Source: Campylobacterales bacterium
GTDB lineage: Bacteria; Campylobacterota; Campylobacteria; Campylobacterales; QNZT01
DNA length: 34,806 bases
Assembly: GCA_027068765.1 (NCBI GenBank)
Contig: JAMOMC010000057.1
Span: 1 to 34,806 of the forward strand
Reading direction: 5' to 3'
Part shown: positions 8,955-22,313 of the stretch, in pieces
How positions within the stretch are numbered: the stretch's first letter is position 1
Layout of the letters: every line of letters begins with the position of its first letter
Program-made: the position numbers and the translations under genes
The notes under the pieces: generated by a model
What the model was told of the DNA's origin: nothing
Database searches by the model: none
Seen by the model: only the letters and a program-made list of their open reading frames with translations

Positions 8955-11138
8955 ATGGTAGATGCGATTAAAGATTTTTTAGGATTTGATATAAAGAGTG
9001 AAAAATATGCACTTGTTGATGATAAGATGTTTGGAAAAATCTCAAAAGAGAAAAAACCTGACAAATGGATAAGATCAACTTGCGGATATTGTGGTGTGGG
9101 ATGTGGGCTTTATATCGGAGTTAAAGATAATAAACCTGTATATACAAAAGGTGATCCAACACATCCCGTAAACATGGGGACACTTTGTCCAAAAGGTTTA
9201 ACTCAACATGAGATGGTTGGAGCAGCTAGTCGTTTAACTTCACCAATGATAAGAAAAAATGATAAATTAGTATCAGTATCATGGGATGAAGCATTTTTAA
9301 AAGTGAGTGAGAAGTTTAAAGATATTGCTTCATTGCATGGTAAAAATGCTGTAGCTTGCATCTCATCTGGGCAACTTTTAACAGAAGAGTTTTACACACT
9401 TGGTAAATTTATTCAGCTAGGACTTGGCACAAATAACTACGATGGTAATACAACTCTTTGTATGTCTAGTGCAATCATGGGTTATAAACAGAGTTTTGGA
9501 AGTGATGGTCCTCCTGGGTGTTATGAGGATTTCTCTTATGCTGATGTAATTTTTCTTTTTGGCTCAAACCTTGCTGATAATCACCCGATAATTAAATTAC
9601 ATATTGAAAAAAACAGTGATAAAACTTTGATAGTTGTAGACCCAAGACATAGCAAAACTGCAAATATTGCTGATATATTTGTACCTATTAAGCCAAGGAC
9701 AGATTTAGCACTTATAAATGGTCTATGTTATATTGTCTGGCAAGAGGGGTTAGCAGATGAAAAATTTATGCAAGAAAAAGTTAATAAAAGCGAAGAGTTT
9801 ATAAAGCATATACAGATATATACACCAAAAATAGTTTCAGGTATAACAGGTATAGAGATAAAAGAGCTTTATAATTTAGCCAATATCTATGCAAAAGCCA
9901 ATAGAGCTTTATGTGCTTGGACTATGGGTATAAATCAATCAACCATGGGGAGTGATACAATAAGTGCAATTTGTAACTTAGCTCTAATGTGTGGAAATAT
10001 AGGAAAGAGAGGGGCTTCAGCTTTTAGTCTAACAGGACAATGCAATGCTATGGGAACAAGAGAAGTAGGATTTACAAGCTCAATTCCAGGGTATAGAGAT
10101 TTTACTAATTTAAAAGATAGGCGGGAGTATGCTGAAATTGTAAATGTTCCGTTAGAGTTAGTTCCAAAAAATAGAGGTTACTCATATCCACAAATCATAG
10201 AGGCAATTGAAAAAGGTGAGATAAAAGCATTATGGATTGTGGGAACAAATCCACTCGTAAGTTTTTCAAATCAAAATCGTATAAGAGAAGCATTTAAAAA
10301 GCTAGAAATTTTAGTAGTTCAAGATTCATTTTTAAGTGATACAGCTTCTTTTGCTGATGTTGTTTTTTCAGCTGCTACATGGAGTGAAAAAGAGGGAACT
10401 TATACAAATAGTGAAAGACGATGTAATTTAGCTAGAAAATCGATAGAAGCACCAAAAGATTGTAAAAGTGATTTTTATATAGTGACTGAGTTTTCTAAAT
10501 ATTTTGAAGGTGTTAATAAGATGTTGTTTGATGGCTGGAGTAGTCACTTAGATGCATTTGATGAGTGGAAAAAAGTAAGTAGTGGAAGACTTTGTGATTA
10601 TAGTGGTATGAGTTATGAAAAGATTGAAAAGCTAGGTGGTATACAGTGGCCGTGCAATAAGCAAAATCCAAATGGCACAAAAAGACTTTATAATGAAAAT
10701 ATTTCTTGTCGTACTCCAGATGGCAAACCTAGATTTATCTCTTCTCACTGGAAGCCTTTAGAGGAGAATATATCTAAAGAGTTTCCATTTATCTTAAATA
10801 CAGGTCGAACGGTAGAACATTTTCATACAGCAACCAAAACAAAAACTATCAAAATACTTAATGATTTAGCACCTGAAGCTTGGGTTGAGATAAATCCAAA
10901 AGATGCAAAAAAATTAAAAGTAAAAAGTGGAGATAGAGTTACAATAAGTTCTGTGAGAGGTGAAGTTGAAAATATTATAGTTAAGGTTACTGGGATTGTG
11001 AGAGAAGAAAATATATTTGTTCCTTTTCATTTTAATAAGCAACTTATAAATAGATTAACCCTTTCTACTTACGACCCAAAGTCATTTACACCAAACTTTA
11101 AACAGTGTGCTGTACAGATAAAAGTTACTAATTCTTGA
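8955..11138 (+). CDS. Cytoplasmic assimilatory-type nitrate reductase (NasA/NarB family)
   Basis: Molybdopterin oxidoreductase of 727 residues, matching the cyanobacterial NarB / proteobacterial NasA length. The N-terminal [4Fe-4S] site is Cys43, Cys46, Cys50 and Cys78 (CGYCGVGCG and TLCPKG). The molybdenum ligand is Cys169 in LCMSSAIMGYKQSFGSDGPP, a pattern diagnostic of assimilatory nitrate reductases rather than formate dehydrogenases. The C-terminal molybdopterin dinucleotide domain starts near 600 (LNTGRTVEHFHTATKTK). No Tat or Sec signal is present, so it is cytoplasmic; by family it would be ferredoxin- or NAD(P)H-partner-dependent. No nitrite reductase or electron-transfer partner lies next to it, so assimilation would need genes elsewhere. 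An atypical cytoplasmic formate dehydrogenase is the main alternative. Its stop codon overlaps the FNR-like box of the nar cluster. Confidence 0.8.
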   Translation: MVDAIKDFLGFDIKSEKYALVDDKMFGKISKEKKPDKWIRSTCGYCGVGCGLYIGVKDNKPVYTKGDPTHPVNMGTLCPKGLTQHEMVGAASRLTSPMIRKNDKLVSVSWDEAFLKVSEKFKDIASLHGKNAVACISSGQLLTEEFYTLGKFIQLGLGTNNYDGNTTLCMSSAIMGYKQSFGSDGPPGCYEDFSYADVIFLFGSNLADNHPIIKLHIEKNSDKTLIVVDPRHSKTANIADIFVPIKPRTDLALINGLCYIVWQEGLADEKFMQEKVNKSEEFIKHIQIYTPKIVSGITGIEIKELYNLANIYAKANRALCAWTMGINQSTMGSDTISAICNLALMCGNIGKRGASAFSLTGQCNAMGTREVGFTSSIPGYRDFTNLKDRREYAEIVNVPLELVPKNRGYSYPQIIEAIEKGEIKALWIVGTNPLVSFSNQNRIREAFKKLEILVVQDSFLSDTASFADVVFSAATWSEKEGTYTNSERRCNLARKSIEAPKDCKSDFYIVTEFSKYFEGVNKMLFDGWSSHLDAFDEWKKVSSGRLCDYSGMSYEKIEKLGGIQWPCNKQNPNGTKRLYNENISCRTPDGKPRFISSHWKPLEENISKEFPFILNTGRTVEHFHTATKTKTIKILNDLAPEAWVEINPKDAKKLKVKSGDRVTISSVRGEVENIIVKVTGIVREENIFVPFHFNKQLINRLTLSTYDPKSFTPNFKQCAVQIKVTNS

Positions 11139-11205: not shown

Positions 11206-11715
11206 ATGATATTTAGTCGTCTAGTGTTTTGGAGTGTGTTTATCTCTACAGTCTCTTTTGGGGCTAGTGTAGATAATGGTGCAAACTTATTTGATGGAAC
11301 AAAGCCATTTAAGAATGGTGGAGTTGCTTGTGTTGCTTGTCATAATGTAAACAACACCTCTACTATAAGAGGTGGTAGTTTAGCCGCAGATTTAACCCCA
11401 TACGGTGGAGATATGGCTAGTACTTTACAATATATGCTTGAAGAATCAGGGGTTATATCATCACCCATAATGGTTGAAGCTTATGAGGGAAAAGATTTAA
11501 CAAAAGATGAAATAGCAGATCTTGTATCATTTTTTAAAACAGTTGATGTAGAGTCTACTGATAGTGGTTCAGGTGGTTATTTTTGGATTTTGGGGTTAAT
11601 ACTTGCTGCTATTTTTTATGTATTAACACTTAAAATGGATCGAAGAAAAACATTAAGAGAGTCTGTAAATCAAGAGTTATATGATAGACAAATAAAATCA
11701 AGTTGGAGGGAGTAA
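11206..11715 (+). CDS. Membrane-anchored monohaem cytochrome c (NarC-like)
   Basis: The protein has 169 residues. An N-terminal signal sequence (about 1-20, ending SFGAS) leads to a periplasmic c-type cytochrome domain with one haem site, CVACH (Cys42, Cys45, His46). Met89 in SSPIMVEAYEG is a likely axial ligand. After a Ser/Gly linker, one transmembrane helix (about 124-143) and a basic cytoplasmic tail follow. It starts the nar cluster with a strong AGGAGG ribosome site and ends 2 bases before narG. This recalls Thermus, where narC encodes a cytochrome c ahead of narGHJI, though Thermus NarC is reported as dihaem. Likely role (inference): electron transfer between NarI or the quinol pool and periplasmic acceptors, or assembly of NarI. 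Confidence 0.85.
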   Translation: MIFSRLVFWSVFISTVSFGASVDNGANLFDGTKPFKNGGVACVACHNVNNTSTIRGGSLAADLTPYGGDMASTLQYMLEESGVISSPIMVEAYEGKDLTKDEIADLVSFFKTVDVESTDSGSGGYFWILGLILAAIFYVLTLKMDRRKTLRESVNQELYDRQIKSSWRE

Positions 11716-11717
11716 GA

Positions 11718-14700
11718 ATGAGTTGGATACAAGATATAGTAAACCCACAAACACGAAAATGGGAAGATTTTTATAGAAATAGATTTCAACATGATAAAAT
11801 TGTAAGAAGTACACACGGCGTAAACTGTACTGGTAGTTGCTCTTGGCAAGTTGCTGTTAAAGATGGTATAGTTGTTTGGGAAACTCAGCAAATTGATTAT
11901 CCAGAGATTGATAGTAAATTACCAGGATATGAGCCTAGAGGATGTCAAAGAGGTATATCTTTTTCATGGTATTTATATAGTCCTATTAGAATCAAATACC
12001 CTCTTATAAGAGGTGCATTACTAGATGCATACAGGGAAGAGAAACAAAAAGCTGGTGGCGACCCTATGAAAGCTTGGGAAAACCTTCAAGCCGATAAAGA
12101 GAAACGAACAGCTTATCAGCATGCAAGAGGTAGAGGTGGATTTAGAAGAGCTACTTGGGATGAAGCAAATGAGATTATGTCAAATGCAAATATCTATACA
12201 GCTAAAAAATATGGTCCAGATCGTGTCATAGGGTTTTCTCCTATTCCTGCTATGTCCATGCTAAGTTATGCAGCTGGATCTAGATTTCTACAACTTTTTG
12301 GTGGAGTAAATATAAGTTTTTATGATTGGTATTGTGATCTTCCTCCTTCATTCCCTGAAATTTGGGGTGAGCAAACAGATTGCTGTGAGAGTGCTGATTG
12401 GTACAATGCAAAAATGATTGTAGATATGGGTGCAAACTTAAACATGACAAGAACACCAGATGCACACTTTTTTGCCGAAGCTAGACATAATGGTACAAAA
12501 ACAATTGTATGTGCACCAGATTTTAGTCAAGTTAGTAAATTTGCAGATCAATGGATACCACTTCATGCTGGTAGTGATGGGGCATTTTGGCAAGCAATCA
12601 CTCATGTTGTATTAAAAGAGTTTTATGTAGATAAACAAGTTCCTTATTTTATTGATTATCTGAAAAAATACTCTGATGTACCATACCTAGTTAAAATAGA
12701 AAAAGGTGATGACGGTATCTTAAAACCAGGTAGACTCTTAAGAGCCAATGAATTAGCCGAATATAAAGATATTGAAAATGGTGAGTGGAAATTTATCCAA
12801 CAAGATACTAAAACTGGAACATTCGTTGTACCAAAAGGTAGTATGGGACATAGATGGGATAAACAAGAGACTGGTAAATGGAATATGAAGCTTGAAAACT
12901 CCATTGATGATAAACCTTATGATCCTATACTCTCATTTATAGACGACAATGATGAAGTACTTTTAGCAGCATTTGATGACTTTGGATTAGATAATCAACC
13001 ACTAAGAGGTGTACCTGTTAAATATATCAAAACTACATCTGGTGAAAAAATAGCAGTAACAACTACATTTGATGTTCACATGGCACAATATGGAGTTCCT
13101 AGAGGACTTGAAGGTGCTTACCCAACAGATTATACTGATAAAACCGCAGCTTATACTCCAGCTTGGCAAGAGATTTTTACAGGGGTTGATGCAAAAACTA
13201 TTATTAGTATTGCTAGAGAGTGGGGAAATACAGGTGAGATAACTGAAGGTAAAAATATGGTTATCGTTGGAGCTGGTATTAACCAGTGGTATCATCAAAA
13301 CCTTATGTATAGAGCTGCTACTATGGCACTTATTTTTACTGGTTCAGTTGGTAAAAATGGTGGTGGTATCAACCATTATGTTGGACAAGAGAAACTAGCT
13401 CCTGTTGATGCGTGGGGAAGTATCGCACTTGCAAAAGATTGGAATTCTACGGCAAGATTACAACAAGGACCTATCTGGCACTATATGAATACAGATCAGT
13501 ATAGATATGATACTAAACATGCAGACTATAATACCGTACCAGATAACGAACTTACAAGAGCTCATATGGCTGATGATATTTATAAGTCAGTTAGATTAGG
13601 ACATATGCCTTTTTACCCACAATTTAATAAAAGTTCATTAGAACTTGCTGCACAAAGTGGTGCTAAAGATGACGACGGTGTCAAGAAGTATGTACTAGAA
13701 TCATTAAAAGATAAATCTTTAGGATATGCAGCTGGTGATGTAGATGCCCCAGAAAATTTCCCTCGTATTTGGTATATTTGGAGAGGTAATGCAATCGCAG
13801 GTAGTATGAAGGGTCAAGAGTATGCAATGAAACATTATCTTGGAACAAATACTGACAATATCACAGCAAAAGATCAAGCAGCAACAGAAGAGGTCAAATG
13901 GCATGATGTAGCACCTGTAGGTAAAATGGATCTTGTAATTGATCTTAACTTTAGAATGGACTCATCTGCTCTTTATTCTGATATTGTTCTTCCTTCAGCT
14001 TCTTGGTATGAAAAAGCTGATATTAACTCTACAGATATGCACTCATTTATTCATCCATTGGGTGAAGCTATTCCTCCTGTATGGGAAGCAAAAACAGATT
14101 GGGAAATATTCTCTAATATTGCTAAAAGTACATCTGAAGTGGCAGAAATTCATCTTTCTGGTATTCAAAAAGATGTTGTAACCGCTCCATTAGTACACGA
14201 TACTGAAGATGAACTTGCTCAACCTACCATCAAAGATTGGTTTAAAGGTGAATGTGAAGCAATCCCTGGCAAAACAATGCACAAAATTGCTATACAAGAG
14301 AGAGATTATACAGAGATTTACGATAAATATATCCGTCTTGGGCCAAATATGAGAAATGGTGCAGGAGCACATGGAAGTTTTTATGAAACAGAGGATGTAT
14401 ATGATGAAATGATAGAATCAAATCACTTTGTAACAGAACTAGAAGAGTATAAAGGTAAAGTGTATCCATCTTTGAAGAAAGATATCTCTGCAATAGATGC
14501 GGTACTTCATCTATCTAGTGTTACAAATGGTAAATTATCAAATAGAGCATATAAAAATGCTGAAAAGAAGACAGGTCTTAAACTTAAAGATATAGCAAAA
14601 GGACAAGAACATCTTCGCCTAAACTATAATGAATTGACAAAAACTATACATAGGTATAATACATCTCCTGTATGGTCTGGTCTTATAGATACGGATAGAG

Positions 14701-15350
14701 CTTATGCTGCATATACTTATAATGTAGAAAAAATGGTACCTTGGAGAACATTGACTGGAAGACAACATACTTATTTAGACCACGAGCTTTATATTGCTCA
14801 CGGTGAACATTTACCGACATACAAACCATCACCGAACAAGGAAGTATTTGGTGATTTAAGAGAAACTGTTGTTAGTGGCGATGCTAAAGTTCTTTCGTGT
14901 TTAACACCACATGGTAAATGGCATATTCACTCTACTTATATGGATAATATTAGAATGTTGACACTTTCACGAGGTATTGAGCCTTGCTGGATTAGTGAAG
15001 CTGATGCAGCAGATCTTGGCATAAAAGATAATGATTGGGTTGAAGTTATTAATGATAATGGTGTTTATGCAACGAGAGCTTGTGTGAGTGCGAGAATTCC
15101 TAAAGGTGTAACTATCGTTTATCATACTATTGAGAGAACTATAGGATTACCGCTTACCGATAAGCGTGAAGGATTTAAAGGTGGAACCAGAAGTGGTGGT
15201 AATAATGCCATAACAAGAGTTCGTCTTAAACCAAACTTATTAGCAGGTGGGTATGGACAATTTACATATTACTTTAACTACTGGGGTCCAGTGGCTGTAA
15301 ATAGAGATGCTCATGTTGTTGTTAGAAAAAAAGATAGTGTTATTTTTTAA
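11718..15350 (+). CDS. narG: Respiratory nitrate reductase alpha subunit
   Basis: Catalytic molybdenum subunit reducing nitrate to nitrite, 1210 residues against 1247 in E. coli. The FS0 [4Fe-4S] ligands are visible as His33, Cys37, Cys41 and Cys76 (HGVNCTGSCSW and PRGCQRG). The molybdenum ligand Asp207 lies in YDWYCDLPPSFPEIWGEQTD, nearly identical to the E. coli Asp222 segment. That distinguishes true NarG from Nap/Nas, which use cysteine. No twin-arginine signal is present, so this is the cytoplasm-facing type. The start is ATG at 11718, with GGAGGG 7 bases upstream. An in-frame TTG five codons earlier overlaps that ribosome site and is rejected. It lies 2 bases after the cytochrome gene and 30 bases before narH. 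Confidence 0.97.
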   Translation: MSWIQDIVNPQTRKWEDFYRNRFQHDKIVRSTHGVNCTGSCSWQVAVKDGIVVWETQQIDYPEIDSKLPGYEPRGCQRGISFSWYLYSPIRIKYPLIRGALLDAYREEKQKAGGDPMKAWENLQADKEKRTAYQHARGRGGFRRATWDEANEIMSNANIYTAKKYGPDRVIGFSPIPAMSMLSYAAGSRFLQLFGGVNISFYDWYCDLPPSFPEIWGEQTDCCESADWYNAKMIVDMGANLNMTRTPDAHFFAEARHNGTKTIVCAPDFSQVSKFADQWIPLHAGSDGAFWQAITHVVLKEFYVDKQVPYFIDYLKKYSDVPYLVKIEKGDDGILKPGRLLRANELAEYKDIENGEWKFIQQDTKTGTFVVPKGSMGHRWDKQETGKWNMKLENSIDDKPYDPILSFIDDNDEVLLAAFDDFGLDNQPLRGVPVKYIKTTSGEKIAVTTTFDVHMAQYGVPRGLEGAYPTDYTDKTAAYTPAWQEIFTGVDAKTIISIAREWGNTGEITEGKNMVIVGAGINQWYHQNLMYRAATMALIFTGSVGKNGGGINHYVGQEKLAPVDAWGSIALAKDWNSTARLQQGPIWHYMNTDQYRYDTKHADYNTVPDNELTRAHMADDIYKSVRLGHMPFYPQFNKSSLELAAQSGAKDDDGVKKYVLESLKDKSLGYAAGDVDAPENFPRIWYIWRGNAIAGSMKGQEYAMKHYLGTNTDNITAKDQAATEEVKWHDVAPVGKMDLVIDLNFRMDSSALYSDIVLPSASWYEKADINSTDMHSFIHPLGEAIPPVWEAKTDWEIFSNIAKSTSEVAEIHLSGIQKDVVTAPLVHDTEDELAQPTIKDWFKGECEAIPGKTMHKIAIQERDYTEIYDKYIRLGPNMRNGAGAHGSFYETEDVYDEMIESNHFVTELEEYKGKVYPSLKKDISAIDAVLHLSSVTNGKLSNRAYKNAEKKTGLKLKDIAKGQEHLRLNYNELTKTIHRYNTSPVWSGLIDTDRAYAAYTYNVEKMVPWRTLTGRQHTYLDHELYIAHGEHLPTYKPSPNKEVFGDLRETVVSGDAKVLSCLTPHGKWHIHSTYMDNIRMLTLSRGIEPCWISEADAADLGIKDNDWVEVINDNGVYATRACVSARIPKGVTIVYHTIERTIGLPLTDKREGFKGGTRSGGNNAITRVRLKPNLLAGGYGQFTYYFNYWGPVAVNRDAHVVVRKKDSVIF

Positions 15351-15380
15351 GCACATAAAAAGAAAAATAAGGAGAGTAAG

Positions 15381-16925
15381 ATGGATATAAGATCACAGAT
15401 GTCAATGGTTTTTCACCTAGATAAATGTTTAGGATGCCATACATGTACAGTTGCATGCAAAAATATATGGACAGATCGTAAAGGTGCTGAATATATGTGG
15501 TTCAACAATGTTGAGACAAAACCTGGAACAGGATACCCAACAAAGTGGGAAGATCAAGATTTATACAAAGGTGGCTGGGAGAAAAAAGGTAGTTCAATTT
15601 CTTTGAAAGGTGCAGGTAGATTAAAAGGATTGTTAAATATTTTTCACAATCCAAATATGCCAGTGATAGAGGATTATTATGAGCCATTTACATATAAGTA
15701 TTTAGACCTCATTGAAGCACCACAATCTGATGTGCAACCTGTTGCACGACCTGTTTCTCTTATTACAGGTAAACCTATAGATATTAAAATGGGACCAAAT
15801 TGGGATGATGATTTAAGTGGTACACCAGATTTTGCAAGAAAAGATCCAAACTTAGCAAAACTTACGCCAGCTGAACAAGAGGCTATGTTTCAACTAGAGC
15901 AGATGGCATTTTATTATCTGCCTCGTATCTGTAATCACTGTTTAAACCCTGCTTGTGTGGCTTCTTGTCCATCAGGTGCTATCTATAAAAGAGGAGAAGA
16001 TGGTGTTGTATTAATTGATCAAAATGTATGTAAAGCATGGAGAATGTGTGTAACAGCTTGTCCTTACAAAAAAACATACTACAATTGGAGTACAGGCAAG
16101 TCTGAAAAGTGTCTTTTATGTTTTCCTAGATTAGAAGCAGGGCAAGCACCAGCTTGTATGCACTCTTGTGTTGGACGAATTAGATACTTAGGTGTACTAC
16201 TTTATGATGCGGATAAGATTAAAGCTTATGCTTCTGCAGATGAAAAAGATTTAATATCTGCTCAAATGGATATTTATTTAGATCCTTTTGATCCTGAAGT
16301 TATAAAATCTGCAAAAGAAAATGGTATAGCAGATTCAACTATTAAAGCAGCACAAGCATCACCAATTTACAAATTTGTTAAAGAGTGGGGTATTGCACTG
16401 CCTTTACATGCAGAGTTTAGAACACTTCCTAACTTATTTTATGTACCACCAATGTTACCAGTAATGGCTACAATAAGTCAAAATACGAAGGATCTCTCAA
16501 CCCTTCATCCAAAAGCAAAAGCTTGGGATGATAAGTGGTTATATGACACAAGTATAGATGAAATTTTTGGAAACATTGACAATATGAGATTTCCTCTTAA
16601 ATATATGGCAAGTTTATTTGGTGCAGGTGATGAAAAACTTATGGCAGAAAAACTTAAAAAACTTATGGCTATTAGAATTTATAGAAGATATGTAACAGTT
16701 GGAGATATTTCTAAGGAAAAATCAGATGCGGCATTATCAGAGATAGGTTTTGACGAAGCAACTGCAGAAGCAGTTTATAAAATGACTTCATTAGCTAAAT
16801 TTGATGATAGATTTGTTATCCCAGCGGCACATAGAGAACAAGCTATTGAGATGCTTGAATCTACTGCTGATGTTAAGGGTAATACTGGATTTGGATGGAC
16901 TCCAAAACCTGCTAGAGGAGTATAA
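15381..16925 (+). CDS. narH: Respiratory nitrate reductase beta subunit
   Basis: Iron-sulfur electron-transfer subunit of 514 residues linking NarI haem to NarG. The first cluster motif is CLGCHTCTVAC (Cys16, 19, 22, 26). Further cluster cysteines are in CNHCLNPACVASCP, CKAWRMCVTACPYKK and CLLCFPRLEAGQAPACMHSC. The Trp in CKAWRMC replaces a cysteine, giving the [3Fe-4S] centre typical of NarH. The ribosome site is AAGGAGA. narJ begins one base after the stop, so narHJ are translationally linked. Confidence 0.97.
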   Translation: MDIRSQMSMVFHLDKCLGCHTCTVACKNIWTDRKGAEYMWFNNVETKPGTGYPTKWEDQDLYKGGWEKKGSSISLKGAGRLKGLLNIFHNPNMPVIEDYYEPFTYKYLDLIEAPQSDVQPVARPVSLITGKPIDIKMGPNWDDDLSGTPDFARKDPNLAKLTPAEQEAMFQLEQMAFYYLPRICNHCLNPACVASCPSGAIYKRGEDGVVLIDQNVCKAWRMCVTACPYKKTYYNWSTGKSEKCLLCFPRLEAGQAPACMHSCVGRIRYLGVLLYDADKIKAYASADEKDLISAQMDIYLDPFDPEVIKSAKENGIADSTIKAAQASPIYKFVKEWGIALPLHAEFRTLPNLFYVPPMLPVMATISQNTKDLSTLHPKAKAWDDKWLYDTSIDEIFGNIDNMRFPLKYMASLFGAGDEKLMAEKLKKLMAIRIYRRYVTVGDISKEKSDAALSEIGFDEATAEAVYKMTSLAKFDDRFVIPAAHREQAIEMLESTADVKGNTGFGWTPKPARGV

Positions 16926-16926
16926 A

Positions 16927-17670
16927 ATGAACAGAGAACATTATTTAACATTATCAAGACTATTTGATTATCCTGATGAGAGTTACGGTTTGCTTGTTCA
17001 AAATATGATAGACGAATTGGCAGCAAAACATCCAGATGCATCTAAAGAACTAGAAGCATTTGCTAAATTGTTGCCAACAAGTACATATCAACTTCAAGAG
17101 CTTTACACTAAATCTTTTGAAGTTCAGGCAGTTACTTCATTAGAGGTAGGATATTTACTCTATGGTGATGATTACACTAGAGGTGAAGTTATGGTTCATT
17201 TAAACAAAGAGCATAGAGAAGTTGGAAATGAATTAGGAACAGAGTTATCTGATCATATTGCCAATGTCTTAAGACTGCTTCCTAAAATGAAAGATGAATC
17301 AGTTATAAATGACTTAGTTACGATGATGATAGCTCCTGCTGTGGAAGTTATGATGCGCGAATATAGTCCAAAAAACATGGAAGCAAAAGATAAGCTGTAT
17401 AAAAAACAGTATAAAACTTTAATTATTCCCTCTGTTCCTGTAGGTATGTTTTTGCACCTTATCAAAGCACTTTATATAGTATTAGATAATGATTTTGTTC
17501 TTATTAAAGAAAATAAACCATTTGGAGATGCAAGTTTCCTAGGTTTTTTAACATCTGAGCTTGAAGTTGAAGAGGGTAAAAAAAGTTCTAACAGCTGTAA
17601 GCCAGCATTTGATGCATCTGGTGTTATGAGTAGTAGTAGCAATAGTAGTAGTTGTAACGGCTGTGTGTAA
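16927..17670 (+). CDS. narJ: Nitrate reductase assembly chaperone with Cys-containing tail
   Basis: Dedicated chaperone for molybdenum cofactor insertion into NarG and for haem insertion into NarI; not part of the final enzyme. The start is ATG at 16927, one base after the narH stop. A longer frame reaching back into narH is rejected because family homology begins at MNREHYLTLSRLFDYPDE. The core motif LLYGDDYTRGEVMVHLNKEH matches the NarJ LFGxxxxRGxAM pattern, followed by LSDHIANVLRLLP. Total length is 247 residues. After the chaperone core, a Ser/Asn-rich linker ends in CNGCV, with another Cys about 24 residues earlier. This CxxC tail is not a usual NarJ feature and might bind metal. Confidence 0.93.
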   Translation: MNREHYLTLSRLFDYPDESYGLLVQNMIDELAAKHPDASKELEAFAKLLPTSTYQLQELYTKSFEVQAVTSLEVGYLLYGDDYTRGEVMVHLNKEHREVGNELGTELSDHIANVLRLLPKMKDESVINDLVTMMIAPAVEVMMREYSPKNMEAKDKLYKKQYKTLIIPSVPVGMFLHLIKALYIVLDNDFVLIKENKPFGDASFLGFLTSELEVEEGKKSSNSCKPAFDASGVMSSSSNSSSCNGCV

Positions 17671-17681
17671 AAATATAAGGT

Positions 17682-17711
17682 GTTGTATTTTTTTTAAGTA
17701 TAAAATACAAC
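17682..17711 (+). repeat. First intercistronic hairpin between narJ and narI
   Basis: Perfect 10-bp inverted repeat, GTTGTATTTT (17682-17691) and AAAATACAAC (17702-17711), with a 10-base loop. It begins 12 bases after the narJ stop. No U-tract follows, so it is more likely an mRNA stability or processing element than a terminator. Confidence 0.65.
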
Positions 17712-17721
17712 TGTAACAATC

Positions 17722-17746
17722 GTAAAATGAGATTTACTCATTTTAC
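17722..17746 (+). repeat. Second intercistronic hairpin between narJ and narI
   Basis: Perfect 10-bp inverted repeat, GTAAAATGAG (17722-17731) and CTCATTTTAC (17737-17746), with a 5-base loop. It ends about 10 bases before the AAAGGAG ribosome site of narI. It could protect the 3' end of an upstream transcript or the 5' end of narI mRNA; no U-tract follows. Confidence 0.65.
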
Positions 17747-17767
17747 ATATTAAAAAAGGAGTTTATT

Positions 17768-18478
17768 ATGGATATATTCTGGTTTGGGGCACTCCCTTAT
17801 GTAGCATTAGCAATCTTTGTGATTGGTTCTATCTATAGATATAAAGTTGGGTTTAAATACTCATCACTATCTTCACAATTTTTAGAATCACAAAAATTTT
17901 CTATGGCTTCTCTTCCTTTTCATATAGGAATTATTGCCGTATTTTTTGCGCATTTAATTGTGTTTATATTTCCTTCGTTTTCTTTTGGCGGAAGTACATT
18001 GGTAACAATGGAGACAATTATGCTTGCATTTAGTTTGATGGCTATTGTTGGATTAGGTCTACTTTTATTTAGAAGACTAACAAATGAAAGAGTGGTAATG
18101 GTAACCAATAAAATGGATATTATTATAGAAGTGTTAATCCTTGTACAACTTATCACTGGTGTACTTATTGCACTGTCTCTTCAGTGGGGTTCTGCATGGT
18201 ATGCTTCTAATATGGTGCCATATTTATGGTCGATATTTACATTTAGCCCTGATATTGCAGCTGTTGCAGTAGCACCTTTGCTTATTCAACTTCATGTTAT
18301 TGGTGCATTTTTAATAATCTTGCTTATTCCATTTTCAAGATTAGTACATTTCTTGGTAGCACCTTTGCATTATATTACTAGACCGTATCAAGTAGTAAGA
18401 TGGAATTGGGATAAGAAAACAGTTAGAGATCCAGATATTCCTTGGGAAGAAGTAGTTCAACGACCAAAGAATAACTAA
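17768..18478 (+). CDS. narI: Respiratory nitrate reductase gamma subunit (cytochrome b)
   Basis: Integral membrane dihaem cytochrome b that oxidises quinol (here menaquinol) and anchors NarGH. It has 236 residues with five transmembrane helices. The four haem ligands are apparent as His52, His62, His176 and His194. Their spacings (10 and 18) equal those of E. coli NarI His56/66 and His187/205. The ATG has an AAAGGAG ribosome site. Unlike most nar operons, where narJ and narI overlap or nearly touch, 97 bases with two hairpins separate them. A terminator follows 3 bases after the stop. Confidence 0.96.
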   Translation: MDIFWFGALPYVALAIFVIGSIYRYKVGFKYSSLSSQFLESQKFSMASLPFHIGIIAVFFAHLIVFIFPSFSFGGSTLVTMETIMLAFSLMAIVGLGLLLFRRLTNERVVMVTNKMDIIIEVLILVQLITGVLIALSLQWGSAWYASNMVPYLWSIFTFSPDIAAVAVAPLLIQLHVIGAFLIILLIPFSRLVHFLVAPLHYITRPYQVVRWNWDKKTVRDPDIPWEEVVQRPKNN

Positions 18479-18481
18479 GTT

Positions 18482-18538
18482 TTTAGCATAAAGAGTGGTG
18501 AGTTATGCTCTTTATGCTAAATTAAAGTTTGTTTTTTT
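18482..18538 (+). terminator. Rho-independent terminator after narI
   Basis: Perfect 14-bp stem, TTTAGCATAAAGAG (18482-18495) and CTCTTTATGCTAAA (18508-18521), with a 12-base loop. A T-rich run (18528-18538) follows, starting 6 bases past the stem. It lies inside the gene cluster, so read-through or a separate promoter must serve narK1. Confidence 0.75.
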
Positions 18539-18601
18539 GAGTATTTTCTTAATATTCAGGTAATCAAAATAGTTAAATTTTTACATACAAAAGGATGAAT
18601 C

Positions 18602-20074
18602 ATGATGGAGGTAGCAACGAGCAAATCACACAAAATGCTCATTTTTAATACGTTAGCATTTACAATTTGCTTTGCAGCGTGGATGTTAAATGGGGTATTG
18701 GTAACTTTTTTAGTTAGCAATGAGGTTTTTGATTGGACTACGGTTGAGATGGGATGGCTTATAGGTATTCCTGTTTTAACAGGAGCTCTTATGAGATTTC
18801 CTGTAGGAATACTCACAGATAAGTTTGGTGGTAAATGGGTATTTGGTATATTATTGCTTTTATCGGCTATTCCTATGTATCTACTATCTACAGCCACTAC
18901 TCTTGAAGAGTATGCACTATATAGCTTAGGGTTTGGAATAACTGGTGCTAGTTTTGCTGTTGGTATTGCTTTTACTTCCGTCTGGTATCCTAGAAAAAAC
19001 CAAGGAACAGTTCTTGGTATATTTGGTGCGGGAAATGCAGGGGCAGCAGCAACTGCTCTACTTGCTCCGTCAATACTAAATAATCTTACAGATGGTGGTG
19101 CAAACCTAGAAGGATGGAGGGTGTTACCTGTTTATTATGCGGCTATATTGTTTATAACAGGGATTGTATTTTTGATTTTTACAGAAAATAGAAAAACAGC
19201 AGCAGCTAATAAAACTCTTGCCAAAATGATGTTACCGCTTAAAGATATACAAGTTTGGAAATTTGGTTTGTGGTATTTCTTAGTATTTGGTTGTTTTGTT
19301 GCTTTTTCTCAGTGGTTAATACCATACTTTGTAAATGTATATTATCTTCCGCTTGTTACGGCAGGATTATTTGCTGCTGCATTTAGTTTTCCATCAGGCG
19401 TTATCCGTGCATTTGGCGGTTGGCTATCTGATGTATATGGTGGAAGAAAAGTTATGGTCTGGGTATTGGCTATTTCGGTAATTATTAGTGCAATGCTTAT
19501 GATACCCAAAGTTGATATATATTCACCAGGAAAAGGTATCATAGCAAAGATACCTGGTGTGGTGACTGAGGTAACAGAAAACAGTGTTACAGTTGGTAAA
19601 AGAGTTTACCACTATTCACCAAAAGAGAAAGAGGATGATGTAAATCTCATTGATAGTGATAAGATGGTTATACTTCCCGTTAAAAAAACTTGGCAAGAGG
19701 CTGTTGTGAAAGTTGGAGATGAAGTTAAGAAAAAACAACTCTTAGTTAAAGGTACAACAAGAATTGCTTTTCAGGCAAATGTTTGGATATTTGCATTTTT
19801 AGCTGTATTGATTGGTGCTATTTGGGGTATTGGAAAGGCTGGAGTTTACAAATATATTCCTGAACATTATCCAGATGATGTTGGTATGGTTGGTGGAGTT
19901 GTTGGTGTTCTTGGAGGGCTTGGTGGCTTTTTCACACCAATTGTCTTTGCATACTTACTTGATTGGACTGGTCTTTGGTCAAGTGCTTGGGCATTTATGC
20001 TTTTCTTGTCCTTCGCTGGAATGTGGTGGTTACTTAAAGATAGTGTAAACAAAGAAGAGAAAAAAGTAGCATAA
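18602..20074 (+). CDS. NarK1-type nitrate transporter with periplasmic insertion
   Basis: Major facilitator protein of the nitrate/nitrite porter family, 490 residues and 12 predicted helices. Family residues include Arg65 in TM2 (LMRFPVG), Arg269 in TM8 (VIRAFGGWLSD), the TM5 signature GAGNAGAAATALLAP and TM11 GGLGGFFTP. The signature is closer to NarK1 (proton-coupled nitrate uptake) than to E. coli NarK. Residues about 304-390, between TM9 and TM10 and predicted periplasmic, form an extra domain. It contains PGVVTEVTENSVTV and VVKVGDEVKKKQLLVKG, reminiscent of lipoyl/biotinyl-type barrel-sandwich folds. The start MMEV follows AAGGAT. A terminator lies upstream; no clear promoter of its own was recognised. 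Confidence 0.88.
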   Translation: MMEVATSKSHKMLIFNTLAFTICFAAWMLNGVLVTFLVSNEVFDWTTVEMGWLIGIPVLTGALMRFPVGILTDKFGGKWVFGILLLLSAIPMYLLSTATTLEEYALYSLGFGITGASFAVGIAFTSVWYPRKNQGTVLGIFGAGNAGAAATALLAPSILNNLTDGGANLEGWRVLPVYYAAILFITGIVFLIFTENRKTAAANKTLAKMMLPLKDIQVWKFGLWYFLVFGCFVAFSQWLIPYFVNVYYLPLVTAGLFAAAFSFPSGVIRAFGGWLSDVYGGRKVMVWVLAISVIISAMLMIPKVDIYSPGKGIIAKIPGVVTEVTENSVTVGKRVYHYSPKEKEDDVNLIDSDKMVILPVKKTWQEAVVKVGDEVKKKQLLVKGTTRIAFQANVWIFAFLAVLIGAIWGIGKAGVYKYIPEHYPDDVGMVGGVVGVLGGLGGFFTPIVFAYLLDWTGLWSSAWAFMLFLSFAGMWWLLKDSVNKEEKKVA

Positions 20075-20097
20075 AAATAAACAAAAGGAGTAATTTT

Positions 20098-20778
20098 ATG
20101 AATGATAGTTTAACTAGTGGTGTCGAATTTAACCCAAATGAACCGACACAACCAGAAGTAGAAATAGATATGGAAGGGGGTGTATCACCATATAGTCCTC
20201 CTGATGCTTATAATCCGCCAAGCAAAGAAGAAGAGATAGCATATGAAGATATGCATCCATTTTTACAAGAGATGATGGATGAGCACAATGAGTACACAAA
20301 AGAGTTAAATGCTTTTGAGGCAACCATTGCAATGATAGAAGGAGGAAAAGTAGACAGAGAAATAGACGAGAGATTACGGCAATTTTTTGCCTTTCTTGAT
20401 GACAAGGTAGTAACTCATAATCAAGAAGAAGAGAAGTATCTTTTTGCAGCTATTTCTAAAAAAATGACAGATACAGGAGATCACTCAAAAACAGATGACA
20501 GTTTTAATGTCATAGATATTTTGGAAGATGATCATGTTAAGGCTATTCAGATGTCGGCGGTCTCATTTAATATGTTTGCACTTTTTTCAAGAATACCTGA
20601 TGAGAAGTCACGTTTTATTATTTTAGATGTGGCTTTAAATCAAGCAAAAGAGTTATTGGAGCTATTAAAAGTGCATATTTTTCGTGAAGACACCATTATC
20701 TTCCCTTATGCACAGAGGAATTTTACAAATGAAGAGTTAACACAAATACAACAAAAAACAAAAGGAGAGAAAGAGTAA
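20098..20778 (+). CDS. Hemerythrin-like (HHE domain) protein of the nar cluster
   Basis: Predicted cytoplasmic diiron protein of 226 residues with no signal peptide. After an acidic, proline-rich extension (about 1-50) comes a four-helix HHE-type domain. Candidate ligands are His63 (DEHNEY), His107 with Glu111/112 (HNQEEE), His146 (EDDHVKA) and His193 with Glu197 (HIFRED). The domain family includes YtfE/RIC and NorA, which handle nitric oxide or iron release under nitrosative stress. Here, between two nitrate transporters, a role in NO or oxygen binding or in FeS repair is inferred. The ribosome site is AAAGGAG. The stop overlaps the next start (TAATG), so it is coupled to narK2. Confidence 0.82.
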   Translation: MNDSLTSGVEFNPNEPTQPEVEIDMEGGVSPYSPPDAYNPPSKEEEIAYEDMHPFLQEMMDEHNEYTKELNAFEATIAMIEGGKVDREIDERLRQFFAFLDDKVVTHNQEEEKYLFAAISKKMTDTGDHSKTDDSFNVIDILEDDHVKAIQMSAVSFNMFALFSRIPDEKSRFIILDVALNQAKELLELLKVHIFREDTIIFPYAQRNFTNEELTQIQQKTKGEKE

Positions 20779-22313
20779 TGGCAATCAATATAGAAAAATA
20801 TGATGTAGAAGATGAACGGTTTTGGGATAAAGAGGGTAAGAGTATCGCAGCTCGTAACCTCTGGATATCTATCCCATCACTTCTTTTAGCCTTTTCAGTA
20901 TGGCTTATGTGGGGTATGTTAATTGTTCAAATGAAAAAGATGGGATTTACTCTTGGTATGAATCCTCAAACACCTGAAGATTGGGCAGAGATAAATGCAC
21001 TTCTTTGGACACTTCCTGCGGTTGCAGGACTAGCAGGGGCTACTCTTAGAATTCCTAATAGTTTTTTAGTTGCTGTTGGTGGAGGTAGAAATGTTATCTT
21101 TTTAACAACTGCTCTTCTTTTAATTCCAGCAATTGGTGCTGGTTGGGCTATGGGAAATAAAGATGTTCCTTATACAGTTTTGGCAATACTTGCAGCAACT
21201 TCTGGTTTTGGTGGTGGTAACTTCTCATCTTCAATGTCAAATATCTCTTACTTTTTTCCAAAAAAAGTTCAAGGTACCTCTTTAGGATTAAATGCAGGAC
21301 TTGGTAACTTAGGTGTTAGTACAATGCAGTTTTTAATTCCTTTTATGTTAACAGCTGGTGCATTTAGTGCAGGTATGCAACTACCTGAATCTGATAAGAT
21401 TATCTATATTCAAGATGCTGCTTGGGTTTGGGTTCCGCTTCTTTTAATATGTGTTATAGCTTCATTTTTTGGTATGAACAATCTAAAAAGTGCTACACCA
21501 AACCTTGGTAATTATGCTGGTGAATTTGGTAAAATTATACTCTTGTTACTATTTGGTATAGCAGCTGCTGGACTTGCTGCATATATGTTTGTAATTTTAA
21601 AAGTTAATATGTGGATAGTTATTCCTACAGCTGTAATTGTCGCGTTAGCATTGATGAAATACTTATCTCCAAAAGAGCTAAAAGGTAGTCTTGACAAACA
21701 GTTTGCAATTTTTAACAATAAACATACATGGATTATGACTATCATATATGTAATGACATTTGGGTCATTCATAGGGTATGCGGCATCATTTCCTAAACTT
21801 ATTCAAGATATTTTTGGTGGCGAAATCAATGCTTTTACATATGCATTTTTAGGACCATTAGTTGGTGCACTTATTAGACCTGTTGGTGGCTGGCTTTCAG
21901 ATAAGATAAATAGTGGATCAAGAGTTACAGCTTGGAGTACAATACTTCAAATTGGTGCTGCTTTAGCGGTTGCTTATTTTATCGTTCAAGCAAGAGAGAG
22001 TTCAACTCCTACTGATTATTGGTGGCCTTTCTTTATATGCTTTATGTTACTGTTTGCTGGTACTGGTATTGGTAATGGTTCTACATTTAGAAGTATTCCA
22101 TATATCTTTAACAAAGAGCAAGCTGGACCGGTTTTAGGTTGGACAGCTGCAATTGGTGCTTATGGTGCATTTATCATGCCAAAACTTTTTGGTCAACAGA
22201 TAAAAGCTGGACATGCTGAGTATGCGATATATGGTTTTATTGCTTATTATGTTGTGTGTCTTATATTAAATTGGTATTATTATGATAGAAAGAATGCCGA
22301 AATAAAGTGTTAA
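20778..22313 (+). CDS. NarK2-type nitrate/nitrite antiporter
   Basis: Second nitrate/nitrite porter, 511 residues and 12 helices. TM5 contains LNAGLGNLGVSTMQFLIPF and TM11 contains GWTAAIGAYGAFIMPKLFG, both very close to E. coli NarK/NarU. Conserved arginines appear in TM2 (TLRIPNSFLV) and TM8 (LIRPVGGWLSD). It probably exchanges external nitrate for the nitrite made by cytoplasm-facing NarG. With the NarK1-type gene upstream this makes the NarK1/NarK2 pair known from denitrifiers such as Paracoccus and Pseudomonas, but as separate genes. The start overlaps the hemerythrin stop by one base. A hairpin follows the stop. Confidence 0.93.
   Translation: MAINIEKYDVEDERFWDKEGKSIAARNLWISIPSLLLAFSVWLMWGMLIVQMKKMGFTLGMNPQTPEDWAEINALLWTLPAVAGLAGATLRIPNSFLVAVGGGRNVIFLTTALLLIPAIGAGWAMGNKDVPYTVLAILAATSGFGGGNFSSSMSNISYFFPKKVQGTSLGLNAGLGNLGVSTMQFLIPFMLTAGAFSAGMQLPESDKIIYIQDAAWVWVPLLLICVIASFFGMNNLKSATPNLGNYAGEFGKIILLLLFGIAAAGLAAYMFVILKVNMWIVIPTAVIVALALMKYLSPKELKGSLDKQFAIFNNKHTWIMTIIYVMTFGSFIGYAASFPKLIQDIFGGEINAFTYAFLGPLVGALIRPVGGWLSDKINSGSRVTAWSTILQIGAALAVAYFIVQARESSTPTDYWWPFFICFMLLFAGTGIGNGSTFRSIPYIFNKEQAGPVLGWTAAIGAYGAFIMPKLFGQQIKAGHAEYAIYGFIAYYVVCLILNWYYYDRKNAEIKC

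Follow-up and report, generated by a model that had tools for sequence, protein, structure and literature searches.

The nitrate transporters of known structure, E. coli NarK and NarU (PDB 4u4t, 4jr9, 4iu8), are of the NarK2-like antiporter type and have no periplasmic domain. As E. coli NarK passes from one state to another its helices TM10 and TM11 bend, and nitrate uptake is abolished by a triple glycine mutation in TM10 (PMC4432589). The nitrate/proton symporter type, NarK1, is known from Thermus, Moraxella and Paracoccus; in Paracoccus a fusion joins NarK1 to NarK2 and the two halves interact functionally (PMC5217062), and the Thermus operon has the order narCGHJIKT. In Geobacter metallireducens a cytochrome-led nar operon (Gmet_0328-0337) encodes narK-1 (Gmet_0333), a proton/nitrate symporter, beside narK-2, and the part of that report devoted to the operon mentions no additional domain (PMC2700814).

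In PepT1 and PepT2 an extracellular domain is located at TM9-TM10, and the Kazal domain of OATP is similarly placed. Like the transporter described below, the PepT proteins are MFS transporters interrupted by a folded domain on the outer side of the membrane (PMC4597091), but their domains are immunoglobulin-like, occur in animals and are unrelated in sequence. Domains of the sandwich-barrel hybrid (SBHM, HABAS) superfamily, to which the present one very probably belongs, are recurrently inserted in unrelated proteins, and among the carriers named in a 2024 paper is a 'major facilitator superfamily transporter protein' that is not identified further (PMC11515920). The section that lists this protein gives neither its family nor its position, organism or role, and it may or may not correspond to the NarK1 analyzed here. 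Since one such case has been listed, the general notion of an MFS protein with an SBHM domain has a precedent; the literature searched contained no account of this domain in any nitrate transporter.

The stretch of DNA analyzed (hereafter the window) comprises 34,806 nucleotides of a Campylobacterota genome and harbors, at positions 11206-22313, an operon of the order cytochrome c-narG-narH-narJ-narI-narK1-hemerythrin-narK2, all encoded on the forward strand. The first gene (11206-11715), in a narC-like position, encodes a cytochrome c that has a single CXXCH and a TM segment at its C-terminus, scoring 18.4 bits with PF00034, below the cut-off of 21.3. The narG, narH, narJ and narI genes (11718-18478) encode a respiratory nitrate reductase that faces the cytoplasm, as judged from a NarG N-terminus without signal. 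These are followed by narK1 (18602-20074; 490 aa, 12 TM helices), a hemerythrin (HHE) gene (20098-20778; PF01814, 4.3e-10) and narK2 (20778-22313), which sequence matches identify as a NarK2-type nitrate/nitrite transporter of 511 aa. Directly upstream of the operon lies a gene for a molybdopterin oxidoreductase (formate dehydrogenase/NasC-like, 727 aa; 8955-11138), a homologue of which is found downstream of narK1 instead in locus L031.

The product of narK1 has the MFS fold (Pfam MFS_1, 3.7e-41), and its best full-length fold matches are NarK entries. Nitrate signatures occur in TM5 (FGAGNAGAA, residues 141-149) and TM11 (GGVVGVLGGLGGFF), and R65 (TM2) and R269 (TM8) align with arginines of 4u4t at nitrate-binding positions. 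The transporter fold, these arginines and the glycine-rich TM10 and TM11 are common to E. coli NarK and NarU. With TIGR00886 the protein scores 181.7 bits in two separate stretches, short of the cut-off of 311.7, as does the NarK2 of the window (294.7 bits); this cut-off is a naming rule and not a functional feature. In a tree rooted with NarK2 proteins, the window protein clusters with the NarK1 (symporter) type. By sequence it is therefore a NarK1-type transporter, nitrate/proton symport being predicted only.

In AlphaFold2 models built on 8 aligned sequences, TM9 (residues 281-299; 19442-19498) and TM10 (residues 394-422; 19781-19867), whose counterpart bends in E. coli NarK, are separated by beta strands spanning residues 304-390, with a low-confidence loop at residues 347-359. 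Alignments, profile comparison and the model delimit an insert of about 89 extra residues (303-391; 19508-19774). The sequence-only reading had proposed an extra periplasmic domain between TM9 and TM10 of a NarK transporter at 19511-19771, nearly the same interval, and both motifs that it quoted, GVVTEVTENSVTV and VVKVGDEVKKKQLLVKG, are present. In the 12-TM numbering, which has the two MFS 'GG(R/K)' motifs in loops 2-3 and 8-9, the TM9-TM10 loop is outside, and in the other loops of the 27 insert-bearing proteins lysine plus arginine averages 13.2 inside versus 2.0 outside; helix count and charge distribution thus locate the insert in the periplasm. The predicted beta fold, its retention in 27 members, and the topology and charge bear out the proposal of a folded periplasmic domain. 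Of the two outcomes named beforehand as contrary to it, neither appeared in the structure and topology predictions: a cytoplasmic placement is ruled out by topology and charge, and a disordered loop by the model, save for residues 347-359. Also ruled out is an assembly chimera or frameshift, the domain being in frame across four phyla.

The domain is joined to the membrane part by two strands. The first (residues 304-314; 19511-19543) contains an invariant PG.G (309-312), and the second (residues 380-390; 19739-19771) enters TM10 through the invariant F390 and N393. Overlapping the latter, residues 368-384 (19703-19753) form the GD-box-like stretch VVKVGDEVKKKQLLVKG, which profile comparisons find to be common to RNA polymerase beta, RnfC and lipoyl domains. 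Across the 27 inserts G372, L380 and G384 are invariant and shared with the GD box of RpoB, while P302, P309, G310, G312, P359, W364, T386, F390 and N393 are invariant and specific to NarK1; this second set maps mostly to the two stalk strands, leaving TM9 and entering TM10, and beside TM10. Variability peaks in the distal loop (342-358). The alignment of the 27 members reveals neither a conserved distal surface nor a charged patch, and the net charge goes from clearly positive to clearly negative from member to member, a change of sign that leaves an electropositive nitrate funnel unsupported. Entropy is higher in the insert than in the core (1.65 versus 0.92 bits), which marks the insert as the faster-evolving part. 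The dN/dS of the insert is 0.07-0.17, somewhat above that of the core where both were computable and with dS near saturation in some pairs, indicating purifying selection. None of the 27 inserts contains a cysteine or an (A/V)MK(M/L)-type turn with a modifiable lysine, in agreement with the absence of an MKM-type lysine noted earlier from the window alone.

When modelled in isolation, the insert is predicted to form six strands, with 49 of 101 residues, among them the core, above pLDDT 90. Nearly all of the best 50 Foldseek matches of this model in the PDB are RNA polymerase beta chains, with a probability of about 1.00 and TM-scores of 0.45-0.53 on the query; E-values are weak (best 0.015), as is usual for a 101-residue query. 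In profile-profile comparison (hhalign) the insert matches a profile of 33 RpoB-type ORFs at 97% (E 8e-11, 63 columns), across both halves of the domain and in the SBHM region, as against at most 1.0% for 30 column-shuffled insert alignments and 0.1% for the reversed alignment. This E-value is optimistic because the RpoB ORFs were collected through matches to the insert profile, a bias from which the Foldseek result is free, as are the matches of 6-8 of 10 inserts to NCBIfam rpoB models (best E 2.3e-4). Genome searches with the insert profile also gave repeated weak matches in ORFs of about 1400 residues, and the one inspected is RpoB. In contrast, RnfC (64%) and lipoyl (79%) profiles, made similarly, match only the GD-box half; in Pfam, 8 inserts match RnfC_N (best 2.5e-5) and 5 match Biotin_lipoyl (best 0.003). 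Among the matches listed no insert exceeds a curated Pfam or NCBIfam cut-off, and by sequence no close relative was found in the PDB, where the insert profile gave only weak RpoB matches.

Together these comparisons identify the insert, with high confidence, as a barrel-sandwich hybrid (SBHM/HABAS) domain. Its stretch V.VGD.V..K.L..G resembles the HABAS motif as given in PMC11515920. In sequence and predicted fold its nearest relative is the SBHM domain of RNA polymerase beta (universal HABAS domain beta-uD5; CATH 2.40.50.100), with which it shares the element order G.V..V - I.V - Y.L - loop - Q.P.V..GD.V.K..LA.G, through either descent from rpoB or mere membership of one superfamily. It differs from that domain in being located inside a membrane transporter, facing the periplasm and having extra stalk strands, and the stretch P359-W364 falls outside the shared motif. 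The lipoyl/biotinyl-like pattern reported by the sequence-only reading consequently stands at the level of the fold superfamily and not as a family assignment, given that the lipoyl profile fits one half of the domain and RNA polymerase beta the whole. Features of HlyD and RND adaptors (two lipoyl halves and a coiled coil) are absent from the insert, a single short beta domain. The protein would represent a further case of an RNA-polymerase-type domain reused across a membrane, on its far side.

In a NarK1 tree built from the membrane core alone, leaving out the insert, all 27 aligned insert-bearing proteins form one clade with support 1.0, with members from Campylobacterota, Geobacter-type bacteria, Planctomycetota and a small fourth phylum. 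Scanning of named genomes yielded insert-bearing NarK1s from MAGs that carry the labels Sulfurimonas, Campylobacterales, Malonomonas, Geobacteraceae, Planctomycetota (two) and Gemmatimonadetes, the last of these falling in a phylum-level group represented by two genomes. Strong matches to a profile of the insert alone were counted in 38 of 195 genomes related to the Geobacteraceae MAG, 4 of 297 genomes of its phylum, 15 of 294 and 13 of 199 genomes in two Planctomycetota samples, and 3 of 397 Campylobacterota genomes; in the Campylobacterota genomes G042 and G190 the insert was found in a separate search. A search of plasmid-borne NarKs found none with the insert. One weak profile match, L102, was discarded as it resembles an M23 peptidase by sequence and not a NarK. 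A NarK1 fragment at a contig end (L005, G011:C161:5-631), 59% identical to the window NarK1 over residues 1-210, ends before the insert.

Nearest to this clade in the tree, among transporters that lack the domain, are the NarK1 proteins of Thermus, Moraxella and Paracoccus, in which the TM9-TM10 loop has 21-22 residues, while in 25 other Campylobacterota NarK1s, more distant from the insert clade, it has 4. A short loop, taken earlier as the norm for NarK, therefore holds for the Campylobacterota proteins and not for the nearer relatives. These data define a NarK1 subfamily by its periplasmic SBHM domain, found mostly in (cytochrome c)-narGHJI-narK1-narK2 operons, the gene order of Thermus, in at least four phyla. 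The simplest reading of the tree is a single gain of the insert, with the operon probably passing from phylum to phylum thereafter. Common in Geobacter-type bacteria, this subfamily is unrepresented by the existing structures of E. coli NarK and NarU.

The adjacent NarK2 proteins are also unusual. Their TM6-TM7 linker has 87-107 residues in 29 of the 33 operons with a readable NarK2, versus 27-28 in ordinary NarK2s such as those of Thermus, Moraxella and Paracoccus, where NarK1 lacks the domain, and the long linkers that were scored contain strongly hydrophobic segments. The sequences inspected show an extra 60-80 residues or so with two likely TM helices, giving a 14-helix NarK2; in the window this hairpin extends approximately over 21504-21677. 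Long-linker NarK2s are encoded in the window and in loci L032-L034, L103, L104, L106, L107, L111-L117, L120, L202-L212, L215 and L216. A strict pairing of the NarK1 domain with the NarK2 helix insertion is ruled out by L108, L118, L213 and L214, in which a short-linker NarK2 adjoins an insert-bearing NarK1.

The best explanation as a whole, to which we give a little less than an even chance, is that the SBHM domain acts as a cap that restrains TM10 and tunes nitrate entry, possibly also holding a NarK1-NarK2 pair. The capping mechanism itself is advanced tentatively. The domain would sit close to the membrane on its two-stranded stalk, whose C-terminal strand leads directly into TM10, which bends during transport by NarK. 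It would tune the entry of nitrate through its hold on this helix and its coverage of the periplasmic mouth, and it may in addition keep the two transporters together. It would bear no prosthetic group and be no redox switch by itself. Capping is favored because the NarK1-specific invariants lie on the stalk beside TM10, the distal loop is variable and TM10 bends in NarK. Counting against it, PepT1 and PepT2 show no appreciable drop in transport when their inserted domain is taken away (PMC4597091). Insert-bearing NarK1s would in any event offer a concrete handle on the gating of respiratory nitrate uptake.

Alternatively, the domain could be a docking module recruiting an envelope protein to the transporter (NarI, the operon cytochrome c, or a protein that handles nitrite or nitrate in the periplasm), as might be expected by analogy with the PepT1/PepT2 domain, which binds trypsin (PMC4597091), and in keeping with the two cytochrome genes reported for the nar operon of G. 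metallireducens (PMC2700814). The sequence-only reading had suggested that the insert might dock another envelope protein or act as a gate, and had raised its association with a narC-like cytochrome as a point to check. A cytochrome c gene opens many insert-bearing operons; it opens the Thermus operon as well, where NarK has no domain, and is thus tied to the operon type and not to the domain. The variable distal loop, the lack of a conserved distal surface or charged patch and the inconstant sign of the net charge further weaken docking, and conservation in the alignment points to the membrane-proximal stalk more than to a distal face for docking, making this a doubtful, if serious, alternative. 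A contact between symporter and antiporter, with the NarK1 domain and the NarK2 two-helix insertion as its halves and taking the place of the Paracoccus fusion, is suggested by the distribution of long linkers and by a survey of 200 Campylobacterales genomes in which, besides the window, close full-length NarK2s of this kind occurred only in G054 and G190, both with the NarK1 insert. We consider it unlikely, as four loci combine the domain with an ordinary NarK2 and the hairpin of NarK2 lies within the membrane close to a cytoplasmic linker, away from the periplasmic domain.

The insert might also be a stable beta module that merely lengthens or stabilizes the TM9-TM10 hairpin, with neither regulation nor docking. 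Its lower conservation relative to the core fits such a passive or structural role, and the 21-residue loop of the sister proteins could be a beta hairpin; yet every member in four phyla keeps the domain, and invariants beyond those shared with RpoB (W364, P359, F390, N393) argue for something more, so that we assign this reading a low probability. The weak Pfam matches to Biotin_lipoyl and RnfC_N could hint at a lipoyl- or biotin-type carrier or a redox-sensing domain. A carrier role is unlikely in the extreme because the lysine of the lipoyl/biotinyl-type hairpin turn is missing, and with no MKM turn and no cysteine in 27 inserts both a carrier and a disulphide or heme redox sensor are ruled out. 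We know of no lipoylation or biotinylation enzyme in the periplasm, which also counts against a carrier.

Besides the domain, hemerythrins accompany some of these transporters. In five Campylobacterota operons (the window, L032, L103, L104 and L105) narK1 and narK2 flank an HHE gene, and a bacteriohemerythrin-like domain of a different type is fused to the cytoplasmic C-terminus of NarK1 in L035, L036 and L189, two of which come from Planctomycetota-type genomes and one from the small fourth phylum. PF01814 was above its cut-off in all four hemerythrin proteins scanned, and the three fusions contain the metal-ligand pattern H, H..E, H...H, H....D. The surroundings of L031, of the Geobacter-type loci read and of most Planctomycetota loci showed no hemerythrin, and its occurrence in five operons and three fusions only rules it out as a constant partner. 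Since for most insert-bearing NarK1s no hemerythrin was found nearby, it does not explain the domain. The association is nevertheless a lead, given that oxygen or redox state inhibits NarK activity as a general effect for which no sensor is known (PMC3445494). In some lineages one transporter would have a cap attached outside and a hemerythrin inside.

A more elaborate and rather improbable possibility is that the capped NarK1 and the extra-helix NarK2 make up a dedicated two-transporter machine, with cytoplasmic hemerythrin controlling nitrate entry in some lineages; if true, it would constitute a built-in answer to the oxygen/redox shut-off of respiratory nitrate uptake. On a Thermus thermophilus plasmid (L123), a nar operon of the same gene order is followed by DUF2249 genes (DrpA/DrpB). 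DrpA and DrpB have been proposed as nitrate sensors, and DUF2249 has been reported in combination with hemerythrin domains (PMC6282519), so that these neighbors hint at a wider link between hemerythrins and nar operons.
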